DNA of 64,000 nt, taken from Microbacterium psychrotolerans. GTDB taxonomy: Bacteria > Actinomycetota > Actinomycetes > Actinomycetales > Microbacteriaceae. The translations under genes were made by a program, and so were the position numbers. The stretch lies in the NCBI RefSeq assembly GCF_031085295.1, contig NZ_JAVFWO010000004.1, positions 310,001 to 374,000 of the forward strand. The letters run 5' to 3'. This document shows, piece after piece, positions 16,449 through 58,344 of this stretch; the stretch's first letter is position 1; each line of letters starts with the position of its first letter. A model generated the notes under the pieces. It was not told where the DNA came from. It searched no databases and saw nothing but the letters and a program-made list of their open reading frames with translations.

Positions 16449-16456
16449 ACGAGGGT

Positions 16457-22351: not shown

Positions 22352-22386
22352 CCGGGGGTGCGGGATGCCGATCCCCGCACCCCCGG
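22352..22386 (+). terminator. Strong intra-operon hairpin after rhaI
   Basis: CCGGGGGTGCGGG (22352-22364) is perfectly complementary to 22374-22386, with a 9-base loop and a further A-T pair outside. No T-run follows, so it may act as a partial terminator or an RNA processing barrier that separates rhaM-rhaI from the later genes. Confidence 0.6.
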
Positions 22387-22438
22387 TGCACCACCTCGAT
22401 CCCGGCACTGCTGCCGGGTCCGGACCCGAAGGATCCAG

Positions 22439-23326: not shown

Positions 23327-23358
23327 GCGACACCAGCCACCCCCGAAGGAATCACGAC

Positions 23359-25395: not shown

Positions 25396-25504
25396 CCGCC
25401 GCGGCCGGCGCCAGAGCGCGAGCGCGCCACCTTCCTGCGACCGCGGCTTCGGCCGACGCCGCACGCGCAGCGAAGTGCAGTGGTCGCACATGCGGGAGCC
25501 CGCG

Positions 25505-26920
25505 GTGACCGGCGGGGTCGTCGCAGCGGTCGACCTCGGCGCGACCAGCGGGCGCGTCATGCTCGGCTACGTCGGCGACGGGATGCTGCGCCTCGAGCAG
25601 GTCGCGCGGTTCCCGAACGGCCCCGTGCCGGGACCGGACGGCCTACACTGGGACTTCTCGGCGCTCTACCGACACATCGTCGATGGCCTCACCGAGGCGC
25701 TGCGGCGTGAGCCCGGCATCGCGAGCATCGGCATCGACTCGTGGGCCGTGGACTACGGTCTCGTCCACGGTGGCGAACTGCTCGGCGAACCGTTCCACTA
25801 CCGCGACGAGCGCACCGCGCGGGGCGTCGGGTCGGTGCACGGCGAGGCGCCGTTCGCGGAGCTGTACCGCCGCAACGGCCTGCAGTTCCTGCCGTTCAAC
25901 ACCCTGTACCAGTACGCGGTCGAAGCGCGCCTCGCCGACGCCGACGTGGCGCTCCTCATCCCCGACCTCGTCGCGTTCCTGTTGACCGGCGCGCGGTTCG
26001 CGGAGCGGACGAACGCCTCCACGACCGGCCTGGTGGACGTCCGCACCGGCGACTGGGACCTGGAGCTCGCCGCACGACTCGGCATTCCGGCATCCGTGCT
26101 CCCGCCCCTCGTGGACCCGGGTGCGACACTGGGCACGCTGCACGGCGAGGCTCGCGAGCGCATCGGGGCCCCGCTCCAGGTGATCGCGGTCGGCTCGCAC
26201 GACACGGCCTCAGCCGTCGTGGCCGTGCCTCTCAGCACCCCCGACGCCGCCTACATCTCCTGCGGCACGTGGGGCCTGGTGGGCGTGGAGCTCGACGAGC
26301 CCGTCGTGAGCGACGCAGCGCGCGAGGCGAACTTCACGAACGAGGGCGGCGTCGACGGGCGCGTCCGGTTCCTCCACAACGTGACGGGGCTGTGGCTGCT
26401 CAGCGAGGCCGTCCGCACGTGGGAGGCCGAAGACGGCGCGACGATCGATCTTCCGGCATTGCTGGATGCCGCAGCCGCCGTCACCGGTGACATCCCCCTG
26501 TTCGACGCCGACGATCCGCGCCTGTCGGCGCCGGGCGACATGCCGGCCCGCATCGCGGCCGTCCTCGACGAGGCGGGCGCAACAGTGCCCGCGACCCGGG
26601 AGGCGTTCGCGCGGACGATCGTGGAGAGCATCGCACAGGCGTTCGCCGACGCCGTCGCCACCGCCGGCCGGCTCACCGGCCGCGACATCGACGTCGTCCA
26701 CATCGTGGGCGGCGGAGCCCTCAACCGGCTGCTCTGCCAGGCGACCGCCGACCGCTCGGGTCTCCCCGTGCTCGCGGGACCGGTCGAGGCGACCGCGCTC
26801 GGCAACGTCCTCGTGCAGGCACGCGCGCACGGCTGGTTCGGCCCCGATGCGACCCTGGAGGACCTGCGGCGCGTGGTCGCGGCATCCGTTTCTCCCGAGC
26901 GGTACGAGCCGCGCTCGTGA
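25505..26920 (+). CDS. rhaB: Rhamnulokinase
   Basis: The protein has about 471 residues and phosphorylates L-rhamnulose with ATP to L-rhamnulose 1-phosphate. It is an FGGY-type kinase: the N-terminal phosphate loop reads VDLGATSGRVM, the sugar-side residues lie in SWAVDYGLV, and the C-terminal nucleotide segments are YISCGTWGLVG and VGGGALNRLLCQ. I prefer GTG 25505 because GGGAG stands six bases before it; in-frame ATGs at 25490 and 25475 lack a site. The last codon overlaps the next start (GTGA), so translation is coupled. The 110 bases before it hold only GC-rich spacer. Confidence 0.92.
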   Translation: MTGGVVAAVDLGATSGRVMLGYVGDGMLRLEQVARFPNGPVPGPDGLHWDFSALYRHIVDGLTEALRREPGIASIGIDSWAVDYGLVHGGELLGEPFHYRDERTARGVGSVHGEAPFAELYRRNGLQFLPFNTLYQYAVEARLADADVALLIPDLVAFLLTGARFAERTNASTTGLVDVRTGDWDLELAARLGIPASVLPPLVDPGATLGTLHGEARERIGAPLQVIAVGSHDTASAVVAVPLSTPDAAYISCGTWGLVGVELDEPVVSDAAREANFTNEGGVDGRVRFLHNVTGLWLLSEAVRTWEAEDGATIDLPALLDAAAAVTGDIPLFDADDPRLSAPGDMPARIAAVLDEAGATVPATREAFARTIVESIAQAFADAVATAGRLTGRDIDVVHIVGGGALNRLLCQATADRSGLPVLAGPVEATALGNVLVQARAHGWFGPDATLEDLRRVVAASVSPERYEPRS

Positions 26921-43647: not shown

Positions 43648-43661
43648 TTACAACGTAGTAA
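43648..43661. promoter_or_regulatory. LacI-type operator TTACAACGTAGTAA
   Basis: This copy lies 96 bases before the tandem-esterase start and downstream of the promoter at 43678-43706, where a repressor would block its transcription. Confidence 0.65.
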
Positions 43662-43677
43662 CTCCCGTCCGCGTTCA

Positions 43678-43706
43678 CTCTTACAGAGCCACTCGCATCG
43701 GGTCAA
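43678..43706 (-). promoter_or_regulatory. Promoter of the tandem esterase gene
   Basis: On the minus strand TTGACC (43706-43701) and TAAGAG (43683-43678) are 17 bases apart, with the operator at 43648-43661 downstream. Confidence 0.45.
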
Positions 43707-43713
43707 GAGAAAA

Positions 43714-43751
43714 ATACAACGTCGTAAAGATTGGCTTTACAACGTCGTAAA
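43714..43751. promoter_or_regulatory. Paired LacI-type operators, TACAACGTCGTAAA and TTTACAACGTCGTAAA
   Basis: The sites at 43714-43727 and 43736-43751 have centres 23 bases apart and share the core ACAACGTCGTAAA. They stand about 65-100 bases before the esterase start at 43816 and probably control it. The same site class occurs at 43648, 52907, 52921 and 57187. Confidence 0.7.
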
Positions 43752-43815: not shown

Positions 43816-45372
43816 GTGGAGAGTATCGCGCAACAGCGCAGAGATGACGCGGGGGTTCGGCACGAGGTCGGAGAGGACCGGCGCTTCGGCAGGCATCGCC
43901 TGAAGGCACTGGCCGTCGCAGTGCTCGCCTCCGCCCTGGTGCTCACCATGTCGCCGGGGGCGGCGCAGGCCGACGATGGGGATCCGACGCCCGGTCCGAC
44001 GATCATCGCGGACCCGGATTCACCCACCGGCTACACGGGCCACTTCGTGTACTACGACCCGGAGGCGACCAGCGTCCGCTTCGTCGCCGACATCCTGCTG
44101 CGCAACTGGGCCGACCCGACGGATACGAAGGTGTACCAGCCGTCCGAGTACAAGCCCGGCCTCATGCGAGGGGGCGGCGGGTACGACGTCGAGATGACCG
44201 ACGCCGGCAACGGGTACTGGGTGACCGACGTTCCGCTCGCGGCGGGCGCGAACCAGTACTGGTTCTACGTGGACGACAACACGAGCCTGTGGGTGGCCGA
44301 CCCGGCGAACTCGCCGATCTTCGCGCCCGACGGACTGACGGGCACAGCGCGACGCGCGTTCAACAAGGTGTTCGTCCCCTACGACGCCGAGAAGCAGAAC
44401 TTCGCGCCTCTGGCCGCCCGCCAGATCGAGCTCGAGCGGGCCGACTCGCCCAAGGGCACGTGGAGCTACGTCCCGTTCGAGGTCAACGGCACGACCCGCA
44501 CGATCGGGGTCTACCTTCCGCCGGGCTACGACGCCGAGCGCGCGGAGCCGTACAAGACGATCTACATGCAGCACGGCAGCGGCCAGGACCAGTCCGACTG
44601 GATGAACATGGGTGACGTGCCGGTCATCATGGACAACCTGATCCAGGACGGGACCACCGAGCCCGCGGTCGTGGTCACGACGAACACGAACTACCTCGGC
44701 GCCTCCAGCCAGGGCTATCCCAACCTGCGGAACGTCGTGATCCCGTTCGTCGAGTCGAACTACAACGTTTCCACGGACGCGATCGACCGTGCCTTCGCGG
44801 GGCTGTCGGCGGGTTCGGGCGTCACGCAGAGCCTGATCAACTTCGATGCTGACGCGTTCGGCTACTACGGGCCCTGGAGTGGCGGCGCGAGCGTCCGCAC
44901 CACCACGCCGAACCTGGCAGCGCCGTACATCCTCTACGGCGGCGGTCGCTGGGACTTCGGTCTGCCCAACGCGAACACGGTGGCGGCGCTCGACAACGTC
45001 GGGTTCGTCGAGAACGTCGTCGTCGCTGGTGCCCACGACTTCAACACGTGGAACCAGATGTTCACGACGTTCGCGCGCGACTACCTGTGGCACCCCGAGG
45101 CCTTCATCAAGGACGAGATCGACACGCTCAAGGCAAGCGTCGCCGGAACGGACCTGAACAAAGGCAACCAGAACGCCCTGACGGTCAAGCTCGACCAGGC
45201 TCTGAACCTCGTCGCGAAGGGCGACAGCGTCGGCGCCCTCGAGGTGCTCAACGGCTTCGTGGCCCAGGTGACCGAGCTCACCGCTGCCGGCAAGCTGACG
45301 ACGGAGCAGTCGGCGGCGCTGCTTCCGGTCGCCCAGAAGATCCTCTTCAACGTGGGCTACTGGGTGCAGTGA
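43816..45372 (+). CDS. Secreted esterase with CBM48-like and FIMAH-like domains
   Basis: The protein has 518 residues. GTG 43816 follows GAGGAGGAAC. A long N region and hydrophobic stretch end in GAAQADDG, a signal peptide. A CBM48-like beta domain (residues 75-185) precedes an esterase with the oxyanion segment MQHGSGQDQSDW, nucleophile GLSAGS near 333 and His in GAHDFNTW near 408. The last 75 residues, with LTVKLDQALNLVAKGD and LNGFVAQVTELT, resemble the FIMAH helical repeat of secreted actinobacterial enzymes. It is a single-module relative of the divergent tandem esterase, so both probably strip ester groups from the same plant polymer. Confidence 0.85.
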   Translation: MESIAQQRRDDAGVRHEVGEDRRFGRHRLKALAVAVLASALVLTMSPGAAQADDGDPTPGPTIIADPDSPTGYTGHFVYYDPEATSVRFVADILLRNWADPTDTKVYQPSEYKPGLMRGGGGYDVEMTDAGNGYWVTDVPLAAGANQYWFYVDDNTSLWVADPANSPIFAPDGLTGTARRAFNKVFVPYDAEKQNFAPLAARQIELERADSPKGTWSYVPFEVNGTTRTIGVYLPPGYDAERAEPYKTIYMQHGSGQDQSDWMNMGDVPVIMDNLIQDGTTEPAVVVTTNTNYLGASSQGYPNLRNVVIPFVESNYNVSTDAIDRAFAGLSAGSGVTQSLINFDADAFGYYGPWSGGASVRTTTPNLAAPYILYGGGRWDFGLPNANTVAALDNVGFVENVVVAGAHDFNTWNQMFTTFARDYLWHPEAFIKDEIDTLKASVAGTDLNKGNQNALTVKLDQALNLVAKGDSVGALEVLNGFVAQVTELTAAGKLTTEQSAALLPVAQKILFNVGYWVQ

Positions 45373-45514: not shown

Positions 45515-46522
45515 CTAGCGAGCGGGCGCTGCCGTCGAATCGCGTACGACGAGACTGGTGGCCAGCTCGACCCGGGTGACTTCCGGCCGCGGCTCGTCGA
45601 GCAGCTGCAGGAGCAGCTTCGTCGCCTGCTCGGCCATCTCGCGCAGGGGCTGGTGAACGGTCGTCAGCCGCGGGCTCGCCAACTCGGCGATCGCGAGGTC
45701 GTCGTAGCCCACGACGGACAGCTCGCCCGGCACCGCGATCCCCCGCGCCTGTGCCGCGTACAGCACCCCGAGCGCCTGCAGATCGTTGCCCGCGAAGATG
45801 GCGGTCGGCGGATCGGCGAGACTCAGCAGCTCCGACGCATGCCTCTCGCCCCCCTCTCGCTGGAAGTCGCCGTAGCGGATCCATTCCGGCTCGATGGCCA
45901 CACCGGCCGAGGTCATCGCCGCGCGGTAGCCATCGAGCCGCGCGAGGGAGCTCATGACCTCCTCGGGACCGGTGATCGCCGCGATCCGGCGATGGCCGAG
46001 CTCCAGCAGATGCCTCGTCGCGGCGAGCCCGCCGGACCAGTTCGCCGAGCCGACGGAGGGGATGCCGGGTGCCGGGTCCCCCGCCGGATCGATGATGACG
46101 AACGGAATGCCGCGGGCCTTCAGCGTGGCGCGACCCTGCGGAGGGACGTCGGCGAACAGCAGGATGATCCCGGTCGGACCCCGTCGCACGACGGCATCGA
46201 GCCACTCCGGCCCGGGCGTGCGCCGGTCGCCGCTGACGGACAGCGAGATCGCCAGGCCCACCTCGGCGGCGCTCTCGCGAACGCCCTCGATGACGGCGAG
46301 CGCCCAGTCGCCGTCGAGTTCGTGGAGCACTACCTCGATGTACTCGCGCCGCTCCTTGCTCTTGCGCCGCCGGTAGCCGCTCATGCGCAGCTGCTCCTCG
46401 ACGAGGGCTCGCGTCGCCGACGACACGTCGGCCGCACCGTTGAGCACTTTCGAGATGGTCGTCAGCGACACTCCGGTCTGCGCGGCGATCTCCTTGAGGG
46501 TCACCCGCTGGGTCCGCGCCAT
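45515..46522 (-). CDS. LacI-family regulator of the arabinoside operon
   Basis: The protein has 335 residues with ATG 46522 (a GTG stands just before it). The helix-turn-helix covers about residues 7-28 with recognition helix VSLTTISKVLNG, and the linker is unusually basic (RRRKSKERRE). The effector domain follows. It is the last gene of the operon running from 52811, 13 bases after the GH5 gene, so its level rises with the operon. It is a prime candidate for the (T)TTACAACGTNGTAA(A) sites; the other is the LacI gene at 57304-58344. Confidence 0.9.
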   Translation of the reverse strand: MARTQRVTLKEIAAQTGVSLTTISKVLNGAADVSSATRALVEEQLRMSGYRRRKSKERREYIEVVLHELDGDWALAVIEGVRESAAEVGLAISLSVSGDRRTPGPEWLDAVVRRGPTGIILLFADVPPQGRATLKARGIPFVIIDPAGDPAPGIPSVGSANWSGGLAATRHLLELGHRRIAAITGPEEVMSSLARLDGYRAAMTSAGVAIEPEWIRYGDFQREGGERHASELLSLADPPTAIFAGNDLQALGVLYAAQARGIAVPGELSVVGYDDLAIAELASPRLTTVHQPLREMAEQATKLLLQLLDEPRPEVTRVELATSLVVRDSTAAPAR

Positions 46523-46535: not shown

Positions 46536-47918
46536 CTAGCGCGCCGCGCGCCGGAGGATCGTCGCCAGCCCTTCGCGGACCCGGCAGTGGGCGAACGAGA
46601 AGGCGTCGGCCAGCTGCTCCGCCTCGTCGGGCGCGACGCCCTCGAACGCCCGCGCGAACTCGTCCACCATCGCCTCGGCGAGCATCACATGCCGCACGTG
46701 TCCGTGGATCCACCGGCGCGCGCCCCACGGGTAGGGCTGGAAATCCGGGAACTCCGTCTCGAAGAGCCGCTCGATCGGTTCCAGGATGCCGCGGACTCCG
46801 GCATCCGTCGATCCCCAGGAGTCCACCCCCAGACGGGCCTTCTTCTCGAGCACGGGCGCGATGCGGCGGAGGTAGGCCGACTCGGGGTCGACGGTCACGA
46901 CTCCCTGCAGCCCGATGTCCTTGTAGGTCCACAGCGCCCAGCTCGCGTCGTACCGCTCGAAGATCTCGAGCTGGTCCTCGAGCAGGCGGTAGCGCTGCTC
47001 GTCCCGCGCGGGGTCACCGGTGTAGACCGGACCGAACTCACCCACCCAGATCGGCGTGCCCGTCTCGCGCATGTACTCAGTCCGCTGCAGGAAGGTCTCC
47101 TCGACGCGTGCCCGGTCGACGAACTGGCCGCGAGAGACCCCGGGGTAGGGGCCGCCGTCGACGAACCCCGGCAGCGCGTAGTCGTGCGCGGTGTAGACGC
47201 AGTTCGGCAGCGGATCGCCCAACTGGTCGAACTGGGTCGAGTAGCGGTTGCCGTCGAGGAAGAGGATGTGGTCGGGATCCACCGCCCGGATTGCCGCCTC
47301 GAGTCGGCGATAGAACGGACCGATGGCGGACCCGTGCGCGTCGGCCGGTTCGTTCACGGGGTTGTAGCCGGCAACCCACGGGTTGCCTCGGTAGTGCTCC
47401 GCGATCGTCTCCCACAGATGGACGACGCGATCCTGAAACTGCCGCTGGCCCCAGAAGTTCGCCCACTGGGTGGGGTTGTCACTGTGCCAGTGCTGGTTCT
47501 GCGCACCCGGCAGCGCATGAAGGTCGAGGATCGTGTAGATCCCGTGGCCGGCGCACGCCTGGACCACCTGATCGAGCAGCCGGAAGCCCTCCTCGCGGAT
47601 GACGAACGGCTCGTCGTCGCTCTCGAAGTGGCGGTAGTTGAAAGGGATCCTCAGCGAGTTGAGTCCGAGCGACTGCAGGAACGCCGCGTCCTCAGCGGTG
47701 AAGAAGCCCGCCAGGAAGCGAGCGAAGAAGCGCTCGTACCCCTCGTCGCCGAGGACGCGCCGAAGGGCGCGCCGCTGCTGCGACTCGGCACCGGCGTAGC
47801 CGGTGATGAAGTTCTCCATGTTCATCCAGCCGCCGAGCCCGAACCCCCTGAGGGTCACCGGCCCGTCGTCGGCCACGATGCGGGTCCCGTCGACACGGAG
47901 CATGCCGTGCGGCGTCAT
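46536..47918 (-). CDS. Glycoside hydrolase family 5 enzyme, cytoplasmic
   Basis: The protein has 460 residues, with ATG 47918 behind GGAGGAGAG. The barrel shows LRIPFNYRHFE near 90, acid/base Glu190 in NPVNEPAD, and nucleophile Glu294 in WVGEFGP. Both catalytic residues are intact. No signal peptide is present, so it cuts imported oligosaccharides. GH5 covers cellulases, mannanases, exo-1,3-glucanases and others, and the GWMNMENF start suggests an exo-acting branch, but the bond cannot be named. It lies 49 bases after the arabinofuranosidase gene. Confidence 0.85.
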   Translation of the reverse strand: MTPHGMLRVDGTRIVADDGPVTLRGFGLGGWMNMENFITGYAGAESQQRRALRRVLGDEGYERFFARFLAGFFTAEDAAFLQSLGLNSLRIPFNYRHFESDDEPFVIREEGFRLLDQVVQACAGHGIYTILDLHALPGAQNQHWHSDNPTQWANFWGQRQFQDRVVHLWETIAEHYRGNPWVAGYNPVNEPADAHGSAIGPFYRRLEAAIRAVDPDHILFLDGNRYSTQFDQLGDPLPNCVYTAHDYALPGFVDGGPYPGVSRGQFVDRARVEETFLQRTEYMRETGTPIWVGEFGPVYTGDPARDEQRYRLLEDQLEIFERYDASWALWTYKDIGLQGVVTVDPESAYLRRIAPVLEKKARLGVDSWGSTDAGVRGILEPIERLFETEFPDFQPYPWGARRWIHGHVRHVMLAEAMVDEFARAFEGVAPDEAEQLADAFSFAHCRVREGLATILRRAAR

Positions 47919-47967: not shown

Positions 47968-49479
47968 TCAGTCGAGCGTCAGAACCGTCCACGAGACAGG
48001 CGGCAGCGTGATGCTGACCGTGCCCTCGCCGACACTCACCGAGGTGTTCTCCCGCGGGGAGACGCGCTCGGGATCCTCCAGCGTGTTCGCCGCGTGGATG
48101 TCGCCGTCGAAGAGCGATGTCGCGCGGGCGGCGCCGACGGAGCCCACGGCACGGGTGTCGATGTCGAGCGTTACCTCCTCCGTCAGGCTGCGGTTCACGG
48201 CGAAGACCGTCGTGCCGCCGCCGGCCTCGTCGTACGTCGCGACGGCGTCGACGAGCGGCACCTCGCCGTAGAGCCGGGTGCCGTAGGTCGGGCTGTCGAG
48301 CTTGAGCTCGAGCGCGACGTCGCGGGCCAGCCTCGAAGTGAGCGAGAACGGGTGGAACGTGGTCTGCCGCCACGCGGGGCCGCCCGGCTCGGTCATGATC
48401 GGCGCGATCACGTTCACGAGCTGCGCCAGGCTGGCGGCGGTCACCCGGTCGGCGTGGCGGATCAGCGAGATCATGAGGCTGCCCAGCACGACGGCATCGA
48501 GCACGGAGTACGAATCCTCCAGCAGCCGCGGCGCGACCGGCCACTCCGCCACGTCGGTGATCTTGTCGACCTCGTTGTAGCGGGACTGGTACCAGACGTT
48601 CCACTCGTCGAAGGAGATGTTGATGGTCTTGTCGCTGCGACGGGTGGCCTTCACGTGGTCGGCGGTGGCGACGACGGCCTCGATGAACCGGTCCATGTTG
48701 ACGCCGGAGGCGAGGAAGCTGCCGTAGTCGTCACCCTTGGGCTCGTAATAGGCGTGGCACGAGATGAAGTCGACGTCGTCGTAGGTGTGCTCGAGGACCA
48801 CGCGCTCCCAGTCGCCGAACGTCGGCATCTGCGCGCTCGAGCTGCCGCAGACGACGAGCTCGAGATCGGGATCGATCTGCCGCATCGCGCTCGCGGTCTT
48901 AGCCGCGAGCCGGCCGTACTCCTCGGCGGTGCTGTGCCCGAGCTGCCACGGGCCGTCCATCTCGTTGCCCAGGCACCACATCCGGATGCCGTGCGGTTCA
49001 GGGTGGCCGTTGGCGACGCGTCGCTGCGCCCAATGCGTGCCCGAGCGCAGGTTCGCGTACTCGAGGACGTCGAGGGCCTCGAGCACGCCCCGCGTTCCCA
49101 GGTTGACGGCGTACATCAGCTCGCTGTCGACCTTCTTCAGCCACCCCGCGAACTCGTCGAGGCCGATCTCGTTACTCTCGGTCGAGTGCCAGGCCAGGTC
49201 GAGCCGTGGCGGTCGCTCGTCGCGCGGCCCGACACCGTCCTCCCAGCGATAGCCCGACACGAAGTTGCCGCCCGGGTATCGGATCGTCGAGACGCCGAGC
49301 TCGCGCACGAGCTCGATGACGTCGGTGCGGAAGCCTTCCTCGTCGGCTTTCTCGTGCCCCGGCTCGTAGATGCCGTCGTACACGCAGCGGCCCAGGTGCT
49401 CGACGAAGGATCCGAAGAGGCGGCGATTGACGGGTCCGATGGTGAACTGCGGGTCGAGGGTGAGGTGTGCTCGGTTCAT
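47968..49479 (-). CDS. abfA: Alpha-L-arabinofuranosidase, glycoside hydrolase family 51
   Basis: The protein has 503 residues and should release terminal alpha-L-arabinofuranose from arabinan, arabinoxylan or arabinogalactan fragments. It has the full family layout: N-terminal IRYPGGNFVSGY near 66, acid/base Glu173 in CLGNEMDG, nucleophile Glu292 in SFDEWNVWY, and a C-terminal beta domain with AVNRSL. There is no signal peptide, as is usual for GH51 enzymes working on imported oligosaccharides. It lies 49 bases after the second permease gene, so uptake and cleavage are co-expressed. Confidence 0.95.
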   Translation of the reverse strand: MNRAHLTLDPQFTIGPVNRRLFGSFVEHLGRCVYDGIYEPGHEKADEEGFRTDVIELVRELGVSTIRYPGGNFVSGYRWEDGVGPRDERPPRLDLAWHSTESNEIGLDEFAGWLKKVDSELMYAVNLGTRGVLEALDVLEYANLRSGTHWAQRRVANGHPEPHGIRMWCLGNEMDGPWQLGHSTAEEYGRLAAKTASAMRQIDPDLELVVCGSSSAQMPTFGDWERVVLEHTYDDVDFISCHAYYEPKGDDYGSFLASGVNMDRFIEAVVATADHVKATRRSDKTINISFDEWNVWYQSRYNEVDKITDVAEWPVAPRLLEDSYSVLDAVVLGSLMISLIRHADRVTAASLAQLVNVIAPIMTEPGGPAWRQTTFHPFSLTSRLARDVALELKLDSPTYGTRLYGEVPLVDAVATYDEAGGGTTVFAVNRSLTEEVTLDIDTRAVGSVGAARATSLFDGDIHAANTLEDPERVSPRENTSVSVGEGTVSITLPPVSWTVLTLD

Positions 49480-49528: not shown

Positions 49529-50455
49529 TCACTTGAGGCTTCCGATCGACAGCCCGCCCTGCCAGTACTTCTGGAGGCCCAGGAACGCGATGATGAGCGG
49601 GATCACCGAGACGAGCGCGCCGAGGATGATGATGCTCCACAGGTTCTGCCCGCCCGCCGCCCCATACGTCGCTGCGGTGGACTGCCAGAGCCCGATGCCG
49701 ACCGTCACGGGGTAGAGGCGGTTGTCCGACAGCATGACGAGCGGGAGGAAGTAGTTGTTCCACGAGGCCACGACGGACAGCAGTACCACCGTCACGATCG
49801 CCGGGCGGAGGAGCGGCAGCGCCACCTGGAGGAACGTCCTGAACTCGCCCGCGCCGTCGACGCGTGCGGCGTCCAGCAGCTCGTCCGGCACCGCATCACG
49901 CGCGTACACGTTCATGAGGTAGACCCCGAACGGATTGAGCAGGCTGGGGAAGATCACCGCCCAGATGGTGTTCGTCCACCCGACCTGAGCGAACAGCACG
50001 AAGGTGGGGATGACGAGGGCCGTCGTCGGGATCATGACGGCACCCAGCAGGATCGCGAACGCGGCACGCCGGCCGGTGAAGTTGTACTTCGCGAATCCAT
50101 AGCCGGCCAGCACGGCGAGCACGGTCGCCCCGACACCGCCGGCGATCGCGTAGAGGGCGGAGTTCGCCAGCCACCGTGCGTAGATGCCCCCGCTGTAGGT
50201 GAAGAGTTCGACCAGATTGCCGATGTAGTCGATGTCGTCCGAGAACCAGAGCGCACTGCCACCCCCGAACAGACCGGCTGAACTCTTCGAGCTGTTGACG
50301 ATGAGCCACCAGAACGGGATCAGGAAGTACACCATCAGCAGCGCGAGCACGACGTTCATCGGTATGCGGCCGCGTGTGCGCGGGGTCGTCCGGCGCTCGA
50401 CGCGTCTGCGCGGCTTCGGGTTCGTCCCGGTGAGCTCCATGGGTGTGACGGTCAT
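49529..50455 (-). CDS. Sugar ABC transporter permease (CUT1, MalG-like)
   Basis: The protein has 308 residues starting at ATG 50455, which overlaps the previous permease stop. The N terminus is long and basic. Helices begin with MNVVLALLMVYFLIPFWWLI near residue 33. The EAA-type loop reads DAARVDGAGEFRTFLQVALP near 208. It forms the channel with the permease encoded just upstream. Confidence 0.93.
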   Translation of the reverse strand: MTVTPMELTGTNPKPRRRVERRTTPRTRGRIPMNVVLALLMVYFLIPFWWLIVNSSKSSAGLFGGGSALWFSDDIDYIGNLVELFTYSGGIYARWLANSALYAIAGGVGATVLAVLAGYGFAKYNFTGRRAAFAILLGAVMIPTTALVIPTFVLFAQVGWTNTIWAVIFPSLLNPFGVYLMNVYARDAVPDELLDAARVDGAGEFRTFLQVALPLLRPAIVTVVLLSVVASWNNYFLPLVMLSDNRLYPVTVGIGLWQSTAATYGAAGGQNLWSIIILGALVSVIPLIIAFLGLQKYWQGGLSIGSLK

Positions 50456-51378
50456 GAGAAGAAGCTCCCTCGCTTGCGGGTGGCGAACAGGAAGATGTAG
50501 ACGCACACGAAGACGACAGCCCCGAGCGCGAACGAGATCGCCGACCCGTAGTTGTAGTTCGCCAGCGAGAACGCCTGCTGGTAGGCGTACATGTTCGGCG
50601 TGAAGTCGTTGGGGATCGCTCCGGCGGCCAGCTGCTGCAGGATCTGGGGCTCGTTGAAGAACTGCAGGGTGCCGATGAGGGCGAACACCAGGATGAGCAG
50701 CAGGGCTGGAGAGAGCAGCGGGATCTTGATCCGCAGGACGATCTGCCATTGGGACGCGCCGTCGATGCGCGCGGCCTCGTAGAGCGTCGGATCGATGCCC
50801 TGCAGCGCGGCGTACAGGATGATCATGTAGTAGCCGACCCACTGCCAGGTGACGATGTTGAGCAGGCCGTAGAAGATGAGGCTGCTGCTCAGGAAATCGG
50901 GAGCCTGAGCGCCGAAACTTTCGAAGATCTCCGCGAGGGGACCGAAGTTGTCGCTGTAGAGGAACCCCCACATCAGGGCGCCGATCACGGTCGGGATCGC
51001 GTAAGGCATGAAGATCATCAGGCGCGAGAATCGCGCGAACCGTGTGATCACGATGTCGAGGATCAGCGCGATCGCGAGCGAGATCGCCATCTGCAGAGGG
51101 ATCAGCACAAGCGAGAACCGGATGACGAACCACATGCCGTCGAGGAACGACGGGTCACTGAAGGCCTTGACGTAGTTGCCGAAGAGGACGAACCTCGTCC
51201 CGCCGATGAGGGACTTCTGGAACAGGCTCAGATAGAGCGCGAACCCGATCGGGAGTACGAGAAGGGTGAGGAAGACGATCCCGAATGGTCCGACGAAGAG
51301 CCAGCCGTAAAGGTTCTGGCGCCGCGTGGTCGACCTTCTGTGCTTCGTCTTCGCGGAGGTTGCGGTTGACGCAGTCAT
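50452..51378 (-). CDS. Sugar ABC transporter permease (CUT1, MalF-like)
   Basis: The protein has 308 residues with ATG 51378 after GGAGAAA. Helices start with LYGWLFVGPFGIVFLTLLVL near residue 22. The EAA loop reads EAARIDGASQWQIVLRIKIP near 217. It follows the binding-protein gene across a 71-base gap that contains a hairpin. As with the rhamnose system, no ATPase gene is nearby. Confidence 0.93.
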   Translation of the reverse strand: MTASTATSAKTKHRRSTTRRQNLYGWLFVGPFGIVFLTLLVLPIGFALYLSLFQKSLIGGTRFVLFGNYVKAFSDPSFLDGMWFVIRFSLVLIPLQMAISLAIALILDIVITRFARFSRLMIFMPYAIPTVIGALMWGFLYSDNFGPLAEIFESFGAQAPDFLSSSLIFYGLLNIVTWQWVGYYMIILYAALQGIDPTLYEAARIDGASQWQIVLRIKIPLLSPALLLILVFALIGTLQFFNEPQILQQLAAGAIPNDFTPNMYAYQQAFSLANYNYGSAISFALGAVVFVCVYIFLFATRKRGSFFS

Positions 51379-51449: not shown

Positions 51450-52811
51450 TCACTTGACGGTGAACCCCTGCTCCTCCGCGTAGGCCACGACGGCGTCCTG
51501 CAGGGCGTCCGCCGCCTCGGAGCCGGTTGCGGACCCCTCGTTGATGCGCGCGATCTGCTCCGTCAGCTGCGAGTAGTAGTACTGGCCGATCGGCGTGTAC
51601 GTCATGCCCTCGTAGGCGTTGGCCGCCGGCACATACACCTCCTTGTTGGCCTGCTGGCCTCCGAAGAAGGGCACCTCGTAGTCCTGGAACTCCGGCGAAT
51701 CGAGCACGTTGACGTTCAGCGGGAAGATGATCTGGTTCTGCCAGCCGTCGTCCAGCGAAGCCTGATCCGCGTAGACACCGAACGCCACCTTGGCCGCGAG
51801 GTCAGGGTCGCTCGCCTGACTCGAGACGGCCATGGCGGAGCCGCCCCAGTTGATCGCGATCGGGTTGCTGGGATCCCACTGCGGCATCGGGGCTGTCGCC
51901 CAGACACCGGCATCCGCGCCCTCGCCGACACCGGCGCCCTGGAGGTAGCCCGGGGCCCAGGCGGCCGAGAGGTAGGTGGCGTAGTCGCCGTTGATCACAC
52001 CGGCGATGTACTCGGGAGTGAACTGGTCCTCCGTGCCGACCAGACCCTTTTCGACGAGGCCGGCCCAGTAGTCGAGGACCTCTTTGATCTCGGGGCTGTT
52101 GAGTTCGATGCCGATCTCACCCTCGTTGGCAGGGTCGTACTCGAACGGCTGCGCACCGTTCTGGTACATCAGCGCCGTGACCTCGGCCGGCTGGTTCGCC
52201 GCGAAGCTCGCGAAGACCGGGCCGCCGGCATCCTTGACCTTCTGCGCCGCGGTCTCGAGCTCGGCCCACGTCGTGGGCGGAGTGATGCCGTACTGGTCGA
52301 AGATGTCGGTGCGGTAGATCATGCCCATCGGGCCGCCGTCGACCGGAGCGCCGTAGATGCCGTCGCCGACGGAGACGTCCTTCCACGCGCCGTCGCTGAA
52401 GTTGTCCTTCACGTCCTCGTAGCCGAGGTCGTTCAGCTCGACCAGGGCGTCCTGCGCTTGGAAGGTCGCGATGCGGTCGGCCTCGACCATCATGACGTCG
52501 GGAGCGCCGCTGCCGGCCGAGATCGCGGTCTGGAACTTGTCGTAGGCGTCACCACCCGCGCCGGCGTTGGTCCAGCAGACCTGGACCTCGTCGTTCTGCT
52601 CGTTGAAGTTGTCGACGACGAGCTCCATGTTCGGATACCAGGCCCACATGGTGACGACCGGCAGGTCCTCCTTGGGGATGGAATTCGTGCAGTTCGCGTC
52701 GTCGTTGCCGCCGCCGTCGGCGTTGTCGCCGCCACCTCCGGCGGTGCACGCAGCCAGAGCGCCGACCAGGGCGAACGCTGTGACTGCAGCAAGGACAGGC
52801 TTCGTCTTCAC
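51450..52811 (-). CDS. ABC transporter substrate-binding lipoprotein (CUT1), probable arabinoside binding
   Basis: The protein has 453 residues and starts at GTG 52811 after AAGGAAA. The signal ends with the lipobox LAAC, followed by a Gly/Asp/Asn linker, so it is a surface lipoprotein. The rest is a family 1 solute-binding fold. It is the first gene of the operon with two permeases, GH51, GH5 and LacI. Two overlapping operators and a promoter stand about 100 bases upstream. An arabinose-containing oligosaccharide is the probable ligand, judged from the enzymes in the operon. Confidence 0.9.
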   Translation of the reverse strand: MKTKPVLAAVTAFALVGALAACTAGGGGDNADGGGNDDANCTNSIPKEDLPVVTMWAWYPNMELVVDNFNEQNDEVQVCWTNAGAGGDAYDKFQTAISAGSGAPDVMMVEADRIATFQAQDALVELNDLGYEDVKDNFSDGAWKDVSVGDGIYGAPVDGGPMGMIYRTDIFDQYGITPPTTWAELETAAQKVKDAGGPVFASFAANQPAEVTALMYQNGAQPFEYDPANEGEIGIELNSPEIKEVLDYWAGLVEKGLVGTEDQFTPEYIAGVINGDYATYLSAAWAPGYLQGAGVGEGADAGVWATAPMPQWDPSNPIAINWGGSAMAVSSQASDPDLAAKVAFGVYADQASLDDGWQNQIIFPLNVNVLDSPEFQDYEVPFFGGQQANKEVYVPAANAYEGMTYTPIGQYYYSQLTEQIARINEGSATGSEAADALQDAVVAYAEEQGFTVK

Positions 52812-52906: not shown

Positions 52907-52936
52907 TCTACAACGTTGTAGAGCAACGTTGTAGAC
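52907..52936. promoter_or_regulatory. Two overlapping LacI-type operators before the arabinoside operon
   Basis: TCTACAACGTTGTAGA at 52907-52922 is a perfect 16-base palindrome. A second copy of the core, GCAACGTTGTAG, follows at 52923-52934, with centres 13 bases apart. Both lie directly after the -10 of the promoter at 52937-52965. Confidence 0.75.
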
Positions 52937-53008: not shown

Positions 53009-53962
53009 TCAGTAGGTGACGGGAGCGTCCCCGAGGCGGGCCACAAGAGCCGACAGGGCCGCGTAAGCCTCATCGCGATACGCGGCGAGCTCCGGGGCGC
53101 GCTCCGGCGGGGTGGCGAGGAATCCGCGGCCGGACTTGAGCCCGTGCTCCCCACGCGCCACGTGGTCCTCCAGGATGCCGGGCGCCGAGAAGCGATCCGG
53201 GTAGGCGCTGTTCAGCGACCCGTAGCAGTACTGGTAGACGTCCAGGCCGGCGATGTCGGCGATGGCGAACGGCCCGAAGAACGGCAGGCGGAATCCGAAC
53301 GTGGTGCGGGCGATCAGATCGATCGCCTCCGGCGTCGCCACTCCTTCCTCGACGAGCCGGGCCGCCTCGCCGAACAGCGCGTACTGCAGCCTGTTGAGCA
53401 CGAAACCGGTGACGTCGGTGATGGGCACGCCGACCTTGCCGCAGTCACTGAGCAGCTCCACCACCGCGGCCACCGCATCCGGACGCGTGGCGACGTGCGG
53501 GATGACCTCGACGCCCGGGATGAACGGCGCCGGGTTGCTGAAGTGCACGCCGAGGAAGCGCTCGACGCCGTCGACGCCCTCGGCGAGCGTGCCGATGGAG
53601 ATCGTCGACGTGTTGCTCCCGATGAGGGCGTCAGGCCGGCAGCTGCGGCTGATCCGGCCGAGAGTCTCGTGCTTGATCGCGAGCACCTCGGGCACCGCCT
53701 CCTCGATGAAGTCGACGTCGGCGACCGCCTCCTCGATCGAGCGCGCCGCGGTCACCCGTGCGGCGACCCGCTCGCCCGCATCCTCGGGGAAGATCCCCCG
53801 GGCGGCGTAGTCGCCCGCTTCCCGGACGATGCGCTGCCTGTTCGTCTCGGCAAGCTCCGCGCTCGCATCCGCCAGCACCACGTCCCGCCCGGAGAGCGCC
53901 AGCACCTGGGCGATGCCACCCCCCATGTAGCCGGACCCCACAACCGCCGCCGTCGAGATCAT
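53009..53962 (-). CDS. 3-hydroxyacyl-CoA dehydrogenase-family oxidoreductase
   Basis: The protein has 317 residues. The NAD loop [12 protein letters not shown] begins at residue 8. The catalytic His lies in LGVHFSNP near 140 and its Glu partner in GVEVI near 152. The helical C domain follows from about 185. The family covers 3-hydroxybutyryl-CoA enzymes and also L-gulonate 3-dehydrogenase-type enzymes that oxidise the 3-hydroxyl of sugar acids. It is the last of four overlapping genes with a TIM-barrel enzyme, a Dha-type kinase and an RpiB-family isomerase, so a sugar-acid substrate is more likely than a fatty acyl-CoA. The ATG overlaps the RpiB stop. Confidence 0.85.
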
Positions 53963-54420
53963 CTCTCACCCTCCTCGTATCGCCCGATCAACTGCACCTT
54001 CTCAGCGGATGCCGACAAGGGGTCGAAGTGATGGTCGAGCCAGTCCGAGACGAGCTTCTTCGCAAGCTCCATGCCGATGACCCGCGCGCCCAGCGTCAGA
54101 ACCTGGGCGTTGTTGCTCTTGACCGAACGCTCCACCGAATACGGGTCGTGAGCGGTGACAGCGCGGATGCCGCGCACCTTGTTCGCCGCGATCGCCACCC
54201 CGAGCCCTGTGCCGCAGACGAGGAGGGCACGATCGGCCTCGCCGCTCGCCACGAGCGTGGCCGCCTCGACGGCGACTCGCGGATACGGCGTCGGCTCCGC
54301 CTTCCTGACACCCACGTCGACGACGCTGCTCACGCGAGGATCAGCGGACAGCATCTCCCGGAGCACCTCTTTGTACTCGAAGCCGGCGTCGTCGGCACCG
54401 ACGACGATCCTCCACCCCAT
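53959..54420 (-). CDS. RpiB/LacAB-family sugar phosphate isomerase
   Basis: The protein has 153 residues, a normal size for RpiB. Recognisable parts are [13 protein letters not shown] at the start, the anion-binding [19 protein letters not shown] near 68-88 with the catalytic Cys, and [14 protein letters not shown] near 102. It interconverts an aldose and a ketose phosphate. RpiB itself acts on ribose 5-phosphate, but relatives next to Dha-type kinases convert tetrulose 4-phosphate to erythrose 4-phosphate in known tetritol pathways. The start lies three bases after the kinase stop. Confidence 0.88.
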
Positions 54421-54423
54421 GGC

Positions 54424-56169
54424 TCACTCCTCTACTTTCCCGGCAGACGCGATGCCTGCAACCGTGTCGACGATGATCCGGAAGGAGGTCGCGCCCGGGT
54501 CCGGATGCCCGAGGCTGCGCTCCGCGAGCGGTGTCGCCCGCCCGCGACGCGGCAGCATCCCGGATGTGGCCGCCGCGCCCTCCGCCGCAGCACCGGCGGC
54601 GATGGCCAGCGCGGACGCCAGGTCTGCTCCGCTGTCCAGCTGCGCGGCGAGAGCCCGTTGGAAGGGCACCATCGCGTCGAGCATCGTCTTGTCGCCGGGC
54701 GCCGCGCCGCCGAGCTCGGCGATGCGGGTGCACGCGGCGGACACGGCGGCTGCGGCATCCTCCGGCCGGAACTGCTCGGGATCACCCAGTGCTCGTCCGA
54801 GCTCCGCCAGCCCGCTGCCCCAGAGCGCGCCCGAGGTGCCGCCGGCGGTCTCCGACCACGCGTCGCCCGCTGTCTCCAGCAGCTCACGCACGCCGACGGC
54901 GTCGCCGAGGGCCTCGGCCGCGTCGACGGCAGCGTTCAGCCCGCGCAGCATGCCGATGCCGTGGTCGCCGTCGCCGGCGACGGCATCGAGCTCTCCGAGA
55001 TGCTCGGCCTCGACGGCGATCGCGTCGCGAGCCGCCTCGAGCAGACGGCGTGCGGTGGCGGCGGCGCGACGTGAGGCGGGAGTCGACGGCCGGGGCTCGC
55101 GTCCGGACTCCGGCGCCGACACCGTGCCGGTCGGCGGCTGCGGCGTCGGCCGCTGCGCGGGGCGCCCGCCGGCCGCTGTCTCACCCTTCCGGAAGGCCGG
55201 CGAGGCTGCGGGTGCGCGCCACAGCTCCTCGAGCTCGTCGTCGAGCCAGAGCATCGTGAGGGACACCCCCGCCATATCCAGGCTCGTCACGAACTCGCCG
55301 CATTCGGGCTCGACGATCTCGATCCCTTGACTCTCGAGGTGATCCGCGACGTAGCCGAAGAGAACGAACAGCTCCTCGTACTTGACCGACCCGAGGCCGT
55401 TCAGCACGACCGCGGCACGGCTGCAGCCCTCGGGGCGCTCGGCGAGCAGCGGCTCGGCGAGGGTCACCGCGAGCTCGGGGGCGGACTGCAGGGGAACGTC
55501 CCGCACGCCGGGCTCGCCGTGTATGCCCAGCCCGATCGACATCTGGCCCTCGGGCACATGGAAGAGCGGGTGGGTCGCCCCCGGCAACGTGCACCCGGCG
55601 AAGGCCACGCCGTGGCTGCGCGTGCGGCTGTTGGCATGAGCGGCCAGACGCTCGACCTCGTCGATCGTGTCACCGCGATCGGCGGCGGCACCGGCGACAT
55701 GGAACACGCAGAGGATGCCCGCGATGCCGCGGCGCTCGTCTCGCGCGTCGGGCGGACTGCTCGCCACGTCGTCGGTGATGAGCACGGTGCGGGCGTCCAC
55801 GCCCTCGGCGCGCAGTCGCCGCTCTGCTTCGCCGAAGTGGATGACGTCGCCCGCGTACCGCCCGTAGGTGAAGAGCACTCCCCCGCCGGCATCGGCCGCG
55901 TGGGCGACGCGGACAGCCTGCGCGGTCGACGGCGACGTGAAGATGTTGCCGCAGACGGCCCCCGCCGCGAGTCCTCGACCCACGAAGCCCGCGAAAGCGG
56001 GGTAGTGCCCAGACCCACCGCCGATGAGGACCGCCACGCGACCAGCGTCGAGCGGCTCAGCCCGCACGACCCCTCCGTCGACCAGGGCGATCTCGTCGCG
56101 ATGCACGGCGGCGAAGCCGCGGAGCGCGTCGGCGACGAAGGCGTCGGGTTCCGCGAAGATGCGCGTCAT
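54424..56169 (-). CDS. Dihydroxyacetone/tetrulose kinase (fused DhaK-DhaL)
   Basis: The protein has 581 residues. The DhaK part (1 to about 325) has IGGGSGHYPAFAG, GCTLPGA and GIHGEPG, whose His forms the covalent link to the ketose. A Pro/Arg/Ala-rich linker covers about 330-375. The DhaL part (376 on) has AVAGDGDHGIGM, whose Asp residues hold Mg-ATP. It is therefore an ATP-dependent single-chain kinase like those for dihydroxyacetone and erythrulose. It overlaps the TIM-barrel gene by four bases. Its RpiB and TIM-barrel neighbours favour a four-carbon ketose over dihydroxyacetone. Confidence 0.88.
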   Translation of the reverse strand: MTRIFAEPDAFVADALRGFAAVHRDEIALVDGGVVRAEPLDAGRVAVLIGGGSGHYPAFAGFVGRGLAAGAVCGNIFTSPSTAQAVRVAHAADAGGGVLFTYGRYAGDVIHFGEAERRLRAEGVDARTVLITDDVASSPPDARDERRGIAGILCVFHVAGAAADRGDTIDEVERLAAHANSRTRSHGVAFAGCTLPGATHPLFHVPEGQMSIGLGIHGEPGVRDVPLQSAPELAVTLAEPLLAERPEGCSRAAVVLNGLGSVKYEELFVLFGYVADHLESQGIEIVEPECGEFVTSLDMAGVSLTMLWLDDELEELWRAPAASPAFRKGETAAGGRPAQRPTPQPPTGTVSAPESGREPRPSTPASRRAAATARRLLEAARDAIAVEAEHLGELDAVAGDGDHGIGMLRGLNAAVDAAEALGDAVGVRELLETAGDAWSETAGGTSGALWGSGLAELGRALGDPEQFRPEDAAAAVSAACTRIAELGGAAPGDKTMLDAMVPFQRALAAQLDSGADLASALAIAAGAAAEGAAATSGMLPRRGRATPLAERSLGHPDPGATSFRIIVDTVAGIASAGKVEE

Positions 56170-57143
56170 GAGGCGGCCCGCCCGTGCTGCGGCTGTCGCA
56201 CGCGACTGCGTCCGACCTCGTACGCGCGGCGCGGCAGCACCCGGTTGCGGAGGTAGTCGCGGTTCGTCGCGCTCACGCTCAGACCGTCGCCACCGTAGTG
56301 CTCCACGCAGATGACACCCTGGAAGCCGCTGCGCAGCGCGATCTTGACCGCCTCACGATAGTTGATGACGCCCAGCTCCAGGCTCGTCGGCACCGTGGAG
56401 ACCACGCCGGCCGCGGCATCCTCATCACGCGTGTAGTTCTTGACGTGCCAGAAGTTCGCGTAGGGCATCGTCGCTTCGGCGAGGGCGCGCCAGTCCTCGA
56501 CGGGCTCGTGCAGGCGGATGAGGTTGCCGATGTCGGGGTTGAGCCCGACGACGTCCAGGCCGATGTCCTCGACCAGCCGCACGGCGGACTCCGCCGTTCC
56601 CAGGAACGTGTGCTCGTAGAGCTCGAGCGAGAGCAGGATGCCGAGGTCCTGTGCGTGGCGGCCCAGCTCCCGCAGGCGCGACACCGCCAGCGTCCACGCC
56701 TGGTCGTCGCCGAACGGGTCGCGATGGCCGTCGACCGTCCAGAACCACAGCTGCGCCCGCTGCGTCGCGGTGAGTGCCCTGTGCAACCCGACCGACACCA
56801 CCCCGATCCCGAGGCGGGCGGCGAACTCGAGGCAGCGATGCGCGTAGGCCAGATGATCGGCACCGTGCTCCTCGTCGATCACGCTGCGCCGGATCGCCGA
56901 CAGCGACACCGCCGTGAGCCCGGTGGCGGCCAGGCACCCCGCGAGCTCGTCGGTCTGCGACGGGGACAGTTCGCCGTAGCGGACCCACGAGTCCGTCAGG
57001 TCCACCTGGGTGAAGCCCGCGTCGCCGACCTCGGTGAGATCCGCCAGCCACCGGATGGTGGGGTCCGGCCCCTCTGCTGCGGGATGGGCATCCCCCATCG
57101 GGAGCATCGCCGCAGCGATCGGCCAGTCGTTCGACATCAGCAT
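56166..57143 (-). CDS. TIM-barrel sugar isomerase/epimerase-family enzyme
   Basis: The protein has 325 residues with ATG 57143 after GGAGG (MLMSNDW; a second ATG is at 57137). It belongs to the xylose-isomerase-like barrel family. A complete metal site is visible: Glu in SLELYEHT near 187, Asp in LNPDIGN near 218, His in WHVKNY near 246, and Glu in CVEHYGGD near 297. Relatives include LerI-type erythrulose 1-phosphate isomerases and barrel enzymes that decarboxylate 3-oxo sugar acids. The neighbours allow either. It leads the four-gene operon and faces the LacI gene across the operator at 57187. Confidence 0.82.
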   Translation of the reverse strand: MLMSNDWPIAAAMLPMGDAHPAAEGPDPTIRWLADLTEVGDAGFTQVDLTDSWVRYGELSPSQTDELAGCLAATGLTAVSLSAIRRSVIDEEHGADHLAYAHRCLEFAARLGIGVVSVGLHRALTATQRAQLWFWTVDGHRDPFGDDQAWTLAVSRLRELGRHAQDLGILLSLELYEHTFLGTAESAVRLVEDIGLDVVGLNPDIGNLIRLHEPVEDWRALAEATMPYANFWHVKNYTRDEDAAAGVVSTVPTSLELGVINYREAVKIALRSGFQGVICVEHYGGDGLSVSATNRDYLRNRVLPRRAYEVGRSRVRQPQHGRAAS

Positions 57144-57186: not shown

Positions 57187-57200
57187 TTTACAACGTTGCA
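57187..57200. promoter_or_regulatory. LacI-type operator TTTACAACGTTGCA
   Basis: This copy of the arabinoside-operon site class lies 44 bases before the TIM-barrel gene and 104 before the divergent LacI gene. It ties the tetrulose operon to the arabinoside operon. Confidence 0.62.
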
Positions 57201-57303: not shown

Positions 57304-58344
57304 ATGGGGGCAACGATGCATGACGTCGCCCGAGTGGCGGGCGTCTCCATCAAGACGGTGTCGAACGTCATCAACGACTATCCGCACGTCCGGCCCGGCA
57401 CGCGCGATCGCGTCAACGAAGCGATCGAACAGCTCGACTACCGCCCCAACCTCTCGGCCCGGGGGCTGAGGTCCGGCCGCACCGGCGTCATCGGACTCGC
57501 CGTCCCGTCACTGCGTGAGAACTACTTCGCCGAACTCGCAGACGAGGTGATCAGGGCGGCCGAGAAACGCGGCCTCGGCGTCATGGTGGAGCAGACCAGC
57601 GGTGAGCGCGAGGCCGAGCTGCGCGCCGTCACCGGCAACCGGCCACGCTTCCTCGACGGCCTGCTGTTCAGCCCCGTGAGTCTCGGACAGGACGACGCCG
57701 AAGCGCTCGCCGTCGACGGGCCGCTCGTGCTCCTCGGCGAGCGCATCTTCGGCGGACCCACCGATCACGTGACCATGCACAACACGTCGTCGTCCCAGGC
57801 GGCAGTGGAGCACCTGCTCGAGATCGGCCGCCGCCGCATCGCGCTCGTCGGTGCCGACCTGCACGGACGCGACGAGGCGAGCTCGGCGAATCTGCGCCTG
57901 AAGGGCTACCTGCGAGCCCTCGAGCAGGCCGGCGTCCCGCTCGATCCCGCGCTGGTCCGCCCGACGGCGATGCTGCGCTGGAACCGGGCCGGCGGCGCTG
58001 CGGCGACCCACCTCATGGTCCGCGAGGGCGTGGACTTCGACGCCGTGTTCGCGCTCAACGACACGCTCGGACTCGGTGTGCTGCGCGCGTTGCGCGAAGA
58101 GGGACTGCGCGTTCCGGACGACGTCGCCGTCATCGGCTTCGACAACATCGATGAGAGCAACTACTCGGTCCCCTCGATGTCGACGGTCGACACCGGCCGC
58201 GCCGAGATCGCGGCCATCGCGGTCGACCGGCTCATCGCGCGCATCAACGAGAAGGGCGAGCGCCGGCCGCCTGAGACCGTCAAGCCGGCCTTCCGCATCG
58301 TGCGACGCGAATCGACCGGCTTCGCCGACACCACGACCGAATAG
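57304..58344 (+). CDS. LacI-family transcriptional regulator of the tetrulose operon
   Basis: The protein has 346 residues with ATG 57304 after GGGAG. The helix-turn-helix covers about residues 4-25 with recognition helix VSIKTVSNVIND. The effector domain has the usual FDGLLFSPVS-type and VIGFDNIDES segments. It is divergent from the four-gene operon and is the natural regulator for it. The recognition helix differs from that of the LacI protein at 45515-46522, yet the operator at 57187 matches that operon's sites, so the two proteins may share or compete for targets. Confidence 0.9.
   Translation: MGATMHDVARVAGVSIKTVSNVINDYPHVRPGTRDRVNEAIEQLDYRPNLSARGLRSGRTGVIGLAVPSLRENYFAELADEVIRAAEKRGLGVMVEQTSGEREAELRAVTGNRPRFLDGLLFSPVSLGQDDAEALAVDGPLVLLGERIFGGPTDHVTMHNTSSSQAAVEHLLEIGRRRIALVGADLHGRDEASSANLRLKGYLRALEQAGVPLDPALVRPTAMLRWNRAGGAAATHLMVREGVDFDAVFALNDTLGLGVLRALREEGLRVPDDVAVIGFDNIDESNYSVPSMSTVDTGRAEIAAIAVDRLIARINEKGERRPPETVKPAFRIVRRESTGFADTTTE

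Follow-up and report, generated by a model that had tools for sequence, protein, structure and literature searches.

A four-gene operon of Microbacterium psychrotolerans as a candidate route from a pentonate to erythrose 4-phosphate by 3-oxidation and decarboxylation

A D-apionate pathway with the enzymes ApnO, OiaC, LerK, LerI and DerI was reportedly described by Carter et al. in 2018, and tetritol pathways of Mycobacterium smegmatis, it is said, by Huang et al. in 2015. We compared these systems with a four-gene operon in a 64,000-nucleotide stretch of Microbacterium psychrotolerans DNA (contig NZ_JAVFWO010000004.1, positions 310,001 to 374,000; the window), which encodes a TIM-barrel protein (the barrel), a DhaK-DhaL fusion kinase, an RpiB-family isomerase and a 3HCDH-family dehydrogenase (HCDH). 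The D-apionate pathway is reported, like the route proposed below, to oxidize an acid, decarboxylate a 3-oxo acid to erythrulose and use a DhaK-type kinase and an RpiB-type isomerase; in contrast, the window operon has a 3HCDH dehydrogenase instead of the PGDH_C type to which ApnO presumably belongs, another PF01261 barrel, and no LerI gene of the kind resembling triosephosphate isomerase (TPI). The tetritol pathways share the kinase and RpiB-type steps leading to D-erythrose 4-phosphate, but they start with a polyol dehydrogenase, and their LerI is a TPI homologue rather than a PF01261 barrel. In animals, according to a commentary (PMC12435205), the L-gulonate 3-dehydrogenase CRYL1 is followed by the 3-dehydro-L-gulonate decarboxylase C11orf54 (DUF1907). 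Both systems would pair a C3 dehydrogenase of the 3HCDH family with a later decarboxylation of a 3-oxo aldonate (predicted here), whereas the animal route acts on a C6 acid, yields L-xylulose and uses a DUF1907 decarboxylase rather than a TIM barrel.

The operon may encode a 3-oxidation and decarboxylation route from a C5 aldonate, more likely one of the D-series, to erythrose 4-phosphate; we give this reading a probability of about 0.55. HCDH would oxidize C3 of a pentonate with NAD, as its residues and gene context suggest. The metal-dependent barrel would then, in the weakest step of the scheme, decarboxylate the 3-oxo-pentonate by way of an enediolate, leaving erythrulose, which by homology the kinase would phosphorylate and the RpiB-family enzyme, acting on D-erythrulose 4-phosphate, would carry on to D-erythrose 4-phosphate. 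In acid-importing relatives, a TPI-like LerI would add the conversion of L-erythrulose 1-phosphate to D-erythrulose 4-phosphate. We favoured a 3-oxo-aldonate decarboxylase making erythrulose because the barrel tracks acid dehydrogenases, remains where the kinase is missing and frequently has acid transporters nearby. A pathway of this type had been proposed in a first-pass annotation of the window; residues and context support it, but the likening of the barrel to LerI did not hold and the two substrates named there are disfavoured. No description of such a pathway was found in the open-licence PMC literature, a scope that most subscription papers lie outside.

According to open reading frame (ORF) and gene calls, the four genes are translationally coupled on the minus strand (57143-53009), overlapping or nearly so, as first described. 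The barrel and kinase genes overlap by 4 bp (56166-56169), as do the RpiB and HCDH genes (53959-53962), and a gap of 3 bp separates the kinase and RpiB genes. The barrel ORF has an alternative TTG start at 57374; the ATG at 57143 was preferred because GGAGG lies upstream of it and the TTG form would cross the operator into lacI. A scan of promoters and terminators revealed nothing clearly exceeding chance. The kinase contains Dak1 and Dak2 domains and exceeded the NF011049 cut-off (709 bits; cut-off 492), and RpiB exceeded that of TIGR02133 (LacAB_rpiB/RPI_actino; 192 bits, cut-off 168), its match to NF051858 DerI (153 bits) being below the cut-off of 240. These proteins were 51% and 67-68% identical, respectively, to the kinase and RpiB of an apionate-like operon in the same genome. 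They resemble a known module, which supports their earlier annotation as a predicted path from erythrulose to erythrose 4-phosphate.

The grouping of the four genes is not due to chance. HCDH was found at an E-value of up to 1e-60 in 44 of 198 same-genus genomes (own included). In the window and 40 same-genus loci, taken from the 43 further genomes with HCDH except G124, G148, and G158, HCDH was called 41 times, the barrel 37, the kinase 33, and RpiB 32; these counts are minima because the gene caller misses some genes. By tblastn, no barrel was found in L021, L051, or L057, and a broken one was found in L022. Barrel relatives occurred in at least 572 stretches in a scan of named genomes, the best 80 of which were kept (closest named relative among the matches listed, Microbacterium yannicii, 92%), and in 19 of 394 genomes of a class-level scan (own included); five of 93 plasmid records also contributed barrel loci. 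After merging 133 barrels by identical C-terminal 250 residues, 127 distinct loci were compared, outside which lie four barrels missed by the gene caller (L059, L074, L077, and L083). The barrel and HCDH, the core pair, occur together in many soil-dwelling bacteria and in mycobacteria. Within 8 genes of the barrel, a span that may take in unrelated genes, HCDH was present in 113 loci, the kinase in 106, RpiB in 99, a TPI-like gene in 56, an MFS transporter in 54, GH51 in 24, GH3 in 13, GntP in 11, an AldO-like oxidase (PF04030/FAD) in 8, and a TTT permease in 7; the LtnD, MFS, and SDR queries match broad families. Acid transporters (MFS, GntP, or TTT) were near the barrel in 72 of the 127 loci, with MFS best matching a D-galactonate transporter model below its cut-off and GntP scoring above its own. 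A threonate-to-dihydroxyacetone route was set aside in view of the conserved RpiB, and a hexonate-to-ribulose role of kinase and RpiB was set aside because the same module accompanies TPI-like LerI in those 56 loci and in the apionate-like operon.

HCDH consists of the domains 3HCDH_N and 3HCDH (predicted structure, mean predicted local distance difference test (pLDDT) 93.8). Sequences from 112 of the 113 HCDH loci, selected by a length filter, were aligned with solved chains. The catalytic residues S119, H140, E152, and N190 were invariant in all 112. P149, Q193, and R225 were also present in every member and H156 in 107 of the 112; the same residues occur in the L-gulonate 3-dehydrogenase 3f3s, whereas three coenzyme A (CoA)-type references carry K/Q, A/L, P, and G at the positions of P149, Q193, R225, and H156. 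Window residue 57, a lysine in these three references, is L or I in all clade members. The structure 4om8, named pyridine-carboxylate dehydrogenase, has P149, Y194, and A195 in common but is without Q193, R225, and H156. Residues and gene context thus support placing HCDH in a non-CoA group of sugar-acid 3-dehydrogenases, in keeping with its first annotation as a putative C3 oxidizer of sugar acids.

PF01261 was the sole domain match of the barrel. Its only strong relative of solved structure by sequence was 5TNV (E 3e-81, 44-45% identity), a xylose isomerase-like TIM barrel of M. smegmatis with magnesium, whose title names no function; the term 5TNV retrieved no paper from the open-licence PMC literature. 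The AF2 model (pLDDT 91.7) matched 5TNV with a Z score of 42.0 and a root-mean-square deviation of 1.9 over 303 residues. E174, D204, and E281 were invariant and H233 nearly so in 27 aligned barrels, and these residues likely form the predicted metal site. Enzymes of this kind stabilize enediolates, as decarboxylation of a 2-hydroxy-3-oxo acid also requires; the modelled fold alone does not discriminate the proposed decarboxylase from an epimerase. The barrel had been taken for a possible LerI relative, which is ruled out by family: LerI and TpiA are described as homologs (PMC10733421), genes resembling LerI in related loci encode TPI homologues (PF00121 in that of the apionate-like operon), and the barrel matches PF01261 only. 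An NCBIfam profile search with the barrel gave no family named OiaC among its matches.

In 14 loci the barrel lacked an HCDH neighbour. Six of these carry PdxA, one an LtnD-like enzyme, and one Iso_dh, indicating that acid dehydrogenases of several kinds partner the barrel; two others are nucleoside-linked with an SDR, L127 carries an SDR together with a 2-hydroxyacid dehydrogenase, contig ends truncate L110 and L141, and L172 has HCDH by tblastn. Scored by operon, 96 of the 127 barrels are accompanied by both dehydrogenase and kinase, 19 by a dehydrogenase without the kinase, 5 by the kinase without a called dehydrogenase, and 7 by neither. Of those five, L062 and L104 reflect gaps in gene calling, HCDH being present in the locus; in L165 PdxA lies on the opposite strand, and L127 and L168 are genuine cases. 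In Halotalea and in two genomes taken as mycobacteria, the LerI-RpiB-kinase unit stands apart from the barrel-HCDH-GntP unit; in the latter two, whose barrels are more than 90% (92-93%) identical to 5TNV, it is divergent. Because the barrel remains with the dehydrogenase where the kinase module is separate, we place it on the acid side of the pathway.

Several loci offered side observations on possible sugar sources. An SMP-30/gluconolactonase gene (PF08450) directly follows the barrel and HCDH genes in L079 (10921-11826), overlapping the end of HCDH, and a lactone-to-acid step would fit there. The nucleoside-linked loci L168 and L169 both contain an adenosine deaminase gene, together with a BMP-type substrate-binding protein (SBP), a class-III aminotransferase and an SDR in L168, and a nucleoside hydrolase and an SDR in L169. 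By its gene content this setting suggests a ribose-derived acid, and the sugar may be D-ribose. In eight Arthrobacter/Pseudarthrobacter loci (L085, L095, L097, L101, L109, L112, L114, and L140), an ABC transporter precedes the four genes, along with two oxidoreductase-like genes, a second PF01261 barrel (tested in L085), and a ThuA-like gene (names assigned by eye), resembling 3-keto-glycoside processing.

Decarboxylation of a 3-oxo pentonate keeps C4, so that L-acids would give L-erythrulose and D-acids D-erythrulose. According to PMC10733421, LerI serves only the L-form of erythrulose, and EltD together with LerK reportedly leads to L-erythrulose 1-phosphate as well as D-erythrulose 4-phosphate, implying that the kinase need not change between the series. 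LerI was scored as absent from genomes with a single TPI homologue (E up to 1e-20) and as present in those with at least two, or with a TPI-like gene no further than 8 genes from the barrel, at any identity. L161-L163, L165, and L166 were scored as present with a TPI-like gene only 40-44% identical to its best relative, and L058, L060, L061 (plasmid only), L110 (a partial metagenome-assembled genome (MAG) in which no TPI homologue was found), and L164 (two homologues, 42 and 38%) were left unscored. Among 68 acid-transporter loci without sugar-import genes, LerI was present in the locus or genome in 64, absent in one (L167), and unscored in three; in the four loci with both kinds of genes, it was present in three and unscored in one. 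For the 39 sugar-type loci (ABC/GH51/GH3, no acid transporter), LerI was absent from 22 genomes, one of them a 2.4-Mb MAG (L067), and present in 17, where it never lay within 8 genes of the barrel. The window's barrel clade comprised 7 rows without and 9 with LerI (16 rows, window included). The eight Arthrobacter/Pseudarthrobacter loci, nested among LerI-bearing relatives, were all without it, as were L168 and L169, only the former of which has kinase and RpiB in the locus. A Fisher test on an earlier LerI tally (58/0 versus 17/21) gave a p of about 4e-11, which overstates the evidence because many of the rows (Arthrobacter group, Microbacterium) are closely related. Because a window-type locus does not depend on LerI, a D-series acid is more likely than L-arabinonate or apionate, and a D-pentonate is slightly favoured as the predicted substrate; D-xylonate from a glycoside-derived pentose is a guess at an example.

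A number of points weigh against the proposed route. The activities of its enzymes are predictions, and no aldose-oxidizing enzyme is encoded within the operon. After 5TNV, the fold neighbours of the barrel (Z 22.7-26.5; 50 rows listed) are mostly keto-sugar epimerases and isomerases, besides a keto-glucal hydratase, IolE, and others, and epimerization or isomerization suits the fold equally. Members of the PdxA and Iso_dh families can themselves lose CO2, in which case no decarboxylation would be left to the barrel in those loci. In L127 and L168, barrel and kinase persist in a locus that contains none of HCDH, PdxA, and LtnD. The case for the D-series is weak: L167, a TTT-transporter locus without kinase or RpiB, belongs to a genome without LerI, and the window's own genome carries a LerI-like gene (G000:C10:282988). 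An independent-pairs test on the barrel tree (124 sequences, built by a quick method without bootstrap and with 27 long end branches, that of L169 being 3.85) gave four pairs with a mean of 2.7 for and 0.0 against, which was not significant (p 0.25), and some pairings had one pair against. L123 and L085 of the Arthrobacter group, one with and one without LerI, are 80-90% identical in all four enzymes, so that tolerance of both C4 forms or help from a housekeeping TPI is possible; PMC10733421 suggests housekeeping TPI as a possible stand-in for LerI.

Among the alternatives, the one that survives best, though we consider it unlikely, is that the barrel is an EryC-like epimerase or isomerase of erythrulose or its phosphate, the 3-oxo acid losing CO2 spontaneously or on the dehydrogenase. 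The fold neighbours are largely ketose 3-epimerases, including a Thermotoga L-ketose 3-epimerase with erythrulose (5h1w), the barrel directly precedes the kinase in many operons, and PdxA and Iso_dh partners may decarboxylate on their own, as noted above. However, with the kinase module in a separate operon the barrel remains with the dehydrogenase, several times beside an acid transporter, and it is retained where TPI-like LerI and RpiB cover tetrulose-phosphate isomerization (a TPI-like gene being near it in 56 of the 127 loci).

It is rather improbable that the substrate is D-apionate or L-arabinonate from GH51-released L-arabinose, as the first-pass annotation proposed. The operator common to GH51 and the four-gene operon is consistent with this, as is the LerI-like gene about 80 kb away in the same genome, but L-arabinonate, and presumably apionate, would lead to L-erythrulose and need the LerI that is missing from 22 of the 39 sugar-type genomes. 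An L-arabinose isomerase gene (PF02610), moreover, is present in the window's genome and in 40 of the 44 same-genus genomes searched (own included). About 80 kb from the window operon, at G000:C10:279.2-286.3 kb, lies the separate apionate-like operon, which encodes an MFS transporter, a kinase, RpiB, a LerI-like TPI, a PF01261 barrel of 264 amino acids, a PGDH_C dehydrogenase similar to 5t57, and an SDR. It resembles the D-apionate route because PGDH_C (PF16896) enzymes presumably include ApnO. Since this separate operon uses the same downstream module, we read the window operon as a parallel route and not as the apionate route.

A barrel that converts 2-oxo and 3-oxo aldonates into each other, as OtnI does in the tetronate pathway (OtnI presumably being a PF01261-type enzyme), or that epimerizes the acid, before an uncatalysed decarboxylation, is distinctly improbable; the barrel does mostly accompany an acid dehydrogenase, and some loci contain LtnD-like and 2-hydroxyacid-dehydrogenase genes, but the HCDH residues indicate 3-oxidation and no other conserved decarboxylase candidate was seen among the clustered neighbours. 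We reject as very improbable the idea that HCDH acts on acyl-CoA and that the operon does not encode a single pathway: the best NCBIfam names of HCDH are 3-hydroxybutyryl-CoA and 3-hydroxyacyl-CoA dehydrogenase, but all 22 matches fell below the curated cut-offs, the shared lysine is lost, the L-gulonate-dehydrogenase-like residues occur in 112 of 112 members, and the gene linkage is conserved.

Returning to the decarboxylation route, a wider reading can be offered only tentatively, at somewhat less than even odds: the barrel/5TNV family would be new metal-dependent 3-oxo-aldonate decarboxylases, a sequence-unrelated bacterial counterpart of the CRYL1-C11orf54 step, funnelling D- and L-pentonates drawn from glycosides, nucleosides, and free acids into erythrose 4-phosphate, with interchangeable acid 3-dehydrogenases (3HCDH, PdxA, LtnD-like, and Iso_dh) and with LerI added for the L-series only. 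If true, this would give a function to a family found in at least 572 genome stretches, including the crystal structure 5TNV, and would reveal an oxidative path from C5 to C4 that leads to erythrose 4-phosphate while avoiding the usual entry points of pentoses.

Table 1. Features of the four-gene operon, its surroundings in the window and the apionate-like operon of the same genome
Feature	Position	Strand	Basis and proposed role
PF01261 TIM-barrel protein, 325 aa	56166..57143	-	PF01261 88 bits; proposed 3-oxo-aldonate decarboxylase
DhaK-DhaL fusion kinase, 581 aa	54424..56169	-	NF011049 709 bits, Dak1 + Dak2; proposed erythrulose kinase
RpiB-family isomerase, 153 aa	53959..54420	-	TIGR02133 192 bits; proposed D-erythrulose-4-phosphate isomerase
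3HCDH-family dehydrogenase (HCDH), 317 aa	53009..53962	-	3HCDH_N + 3HCDH; proposed aldonate 3-dehydrogenase
LacI-type operator 5' of barrel gene	57189..57200	.	TGCAACGTTGTA on coding strand
Pair of adjacent LacI-type operators 5' of SBP gene	52909..52933	.	TACAACGTTGTA motif scan
Divergent LacI-family regulator	57304..58344	+	LacI + Peripla_BP_3
ABC transporter substrate-binding protein (SBP_bac_1)	51450..52811	-	Domain match and gene call
Two ABC sugar permeases	50452-51378 and 49529-50455	-	Gene calls, family by eye
GH51 arabinofuranosidase-like (NF051901 ArfA)	47968..49479	-	726 bits, cut-off 625
GH5 hydrolase (Cellulase PF00150)	46536..47918	-	Domain match
Second LacI-like regulator (by eye)	45515..46522	-	Seen in 12 same-genus loci (cluster 13)
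Apionate-like operon, locus L151	G000:C10:268000-287900, genes 11240-18288		AldO-like oxidase and SBP upstream

Predicted LacI-type operators tie the four-gene operon to the adjacent ABC/GH51 operon. Sites matching TACAACGTTGTA with up to 2 mismatches lie at 57189-57200, 52909-52920, and 52922-52933, and the whole window contains 6 sites of this type, compared with 0.14 expected by shuffling (shuffle maximum 1). Of 25 GH51/SBP loci, that of the window among them, 19 have the core CAACGTTG upstream of the SBP gene, the barrel gene, or both. Together these counts bear out the linked operator that had been noted at first. An FCD-type regulator gene adjoins the barrel gene in five of the 25 loci (L028, L029, L030, L052, and L072), in all of which the operator 5' of the barrel is absent. 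The ABC permeases stay beside SBP in related loci.

Elsewhere in the window, three TACAACGTCGTA/TACAACGTAGTA sites were observed at 43649-43749, between divergent genes matching PF00756 esterases (41354-43552 and 43816-45372). They resemble the operators of the operon and possibly belong to one regulon with them. From its gene starts, the segment at 20756-26920 is presumably a rhamnose-type catabolic cluster, near a long rhamnosidase-like gene pair at 10717-16265.

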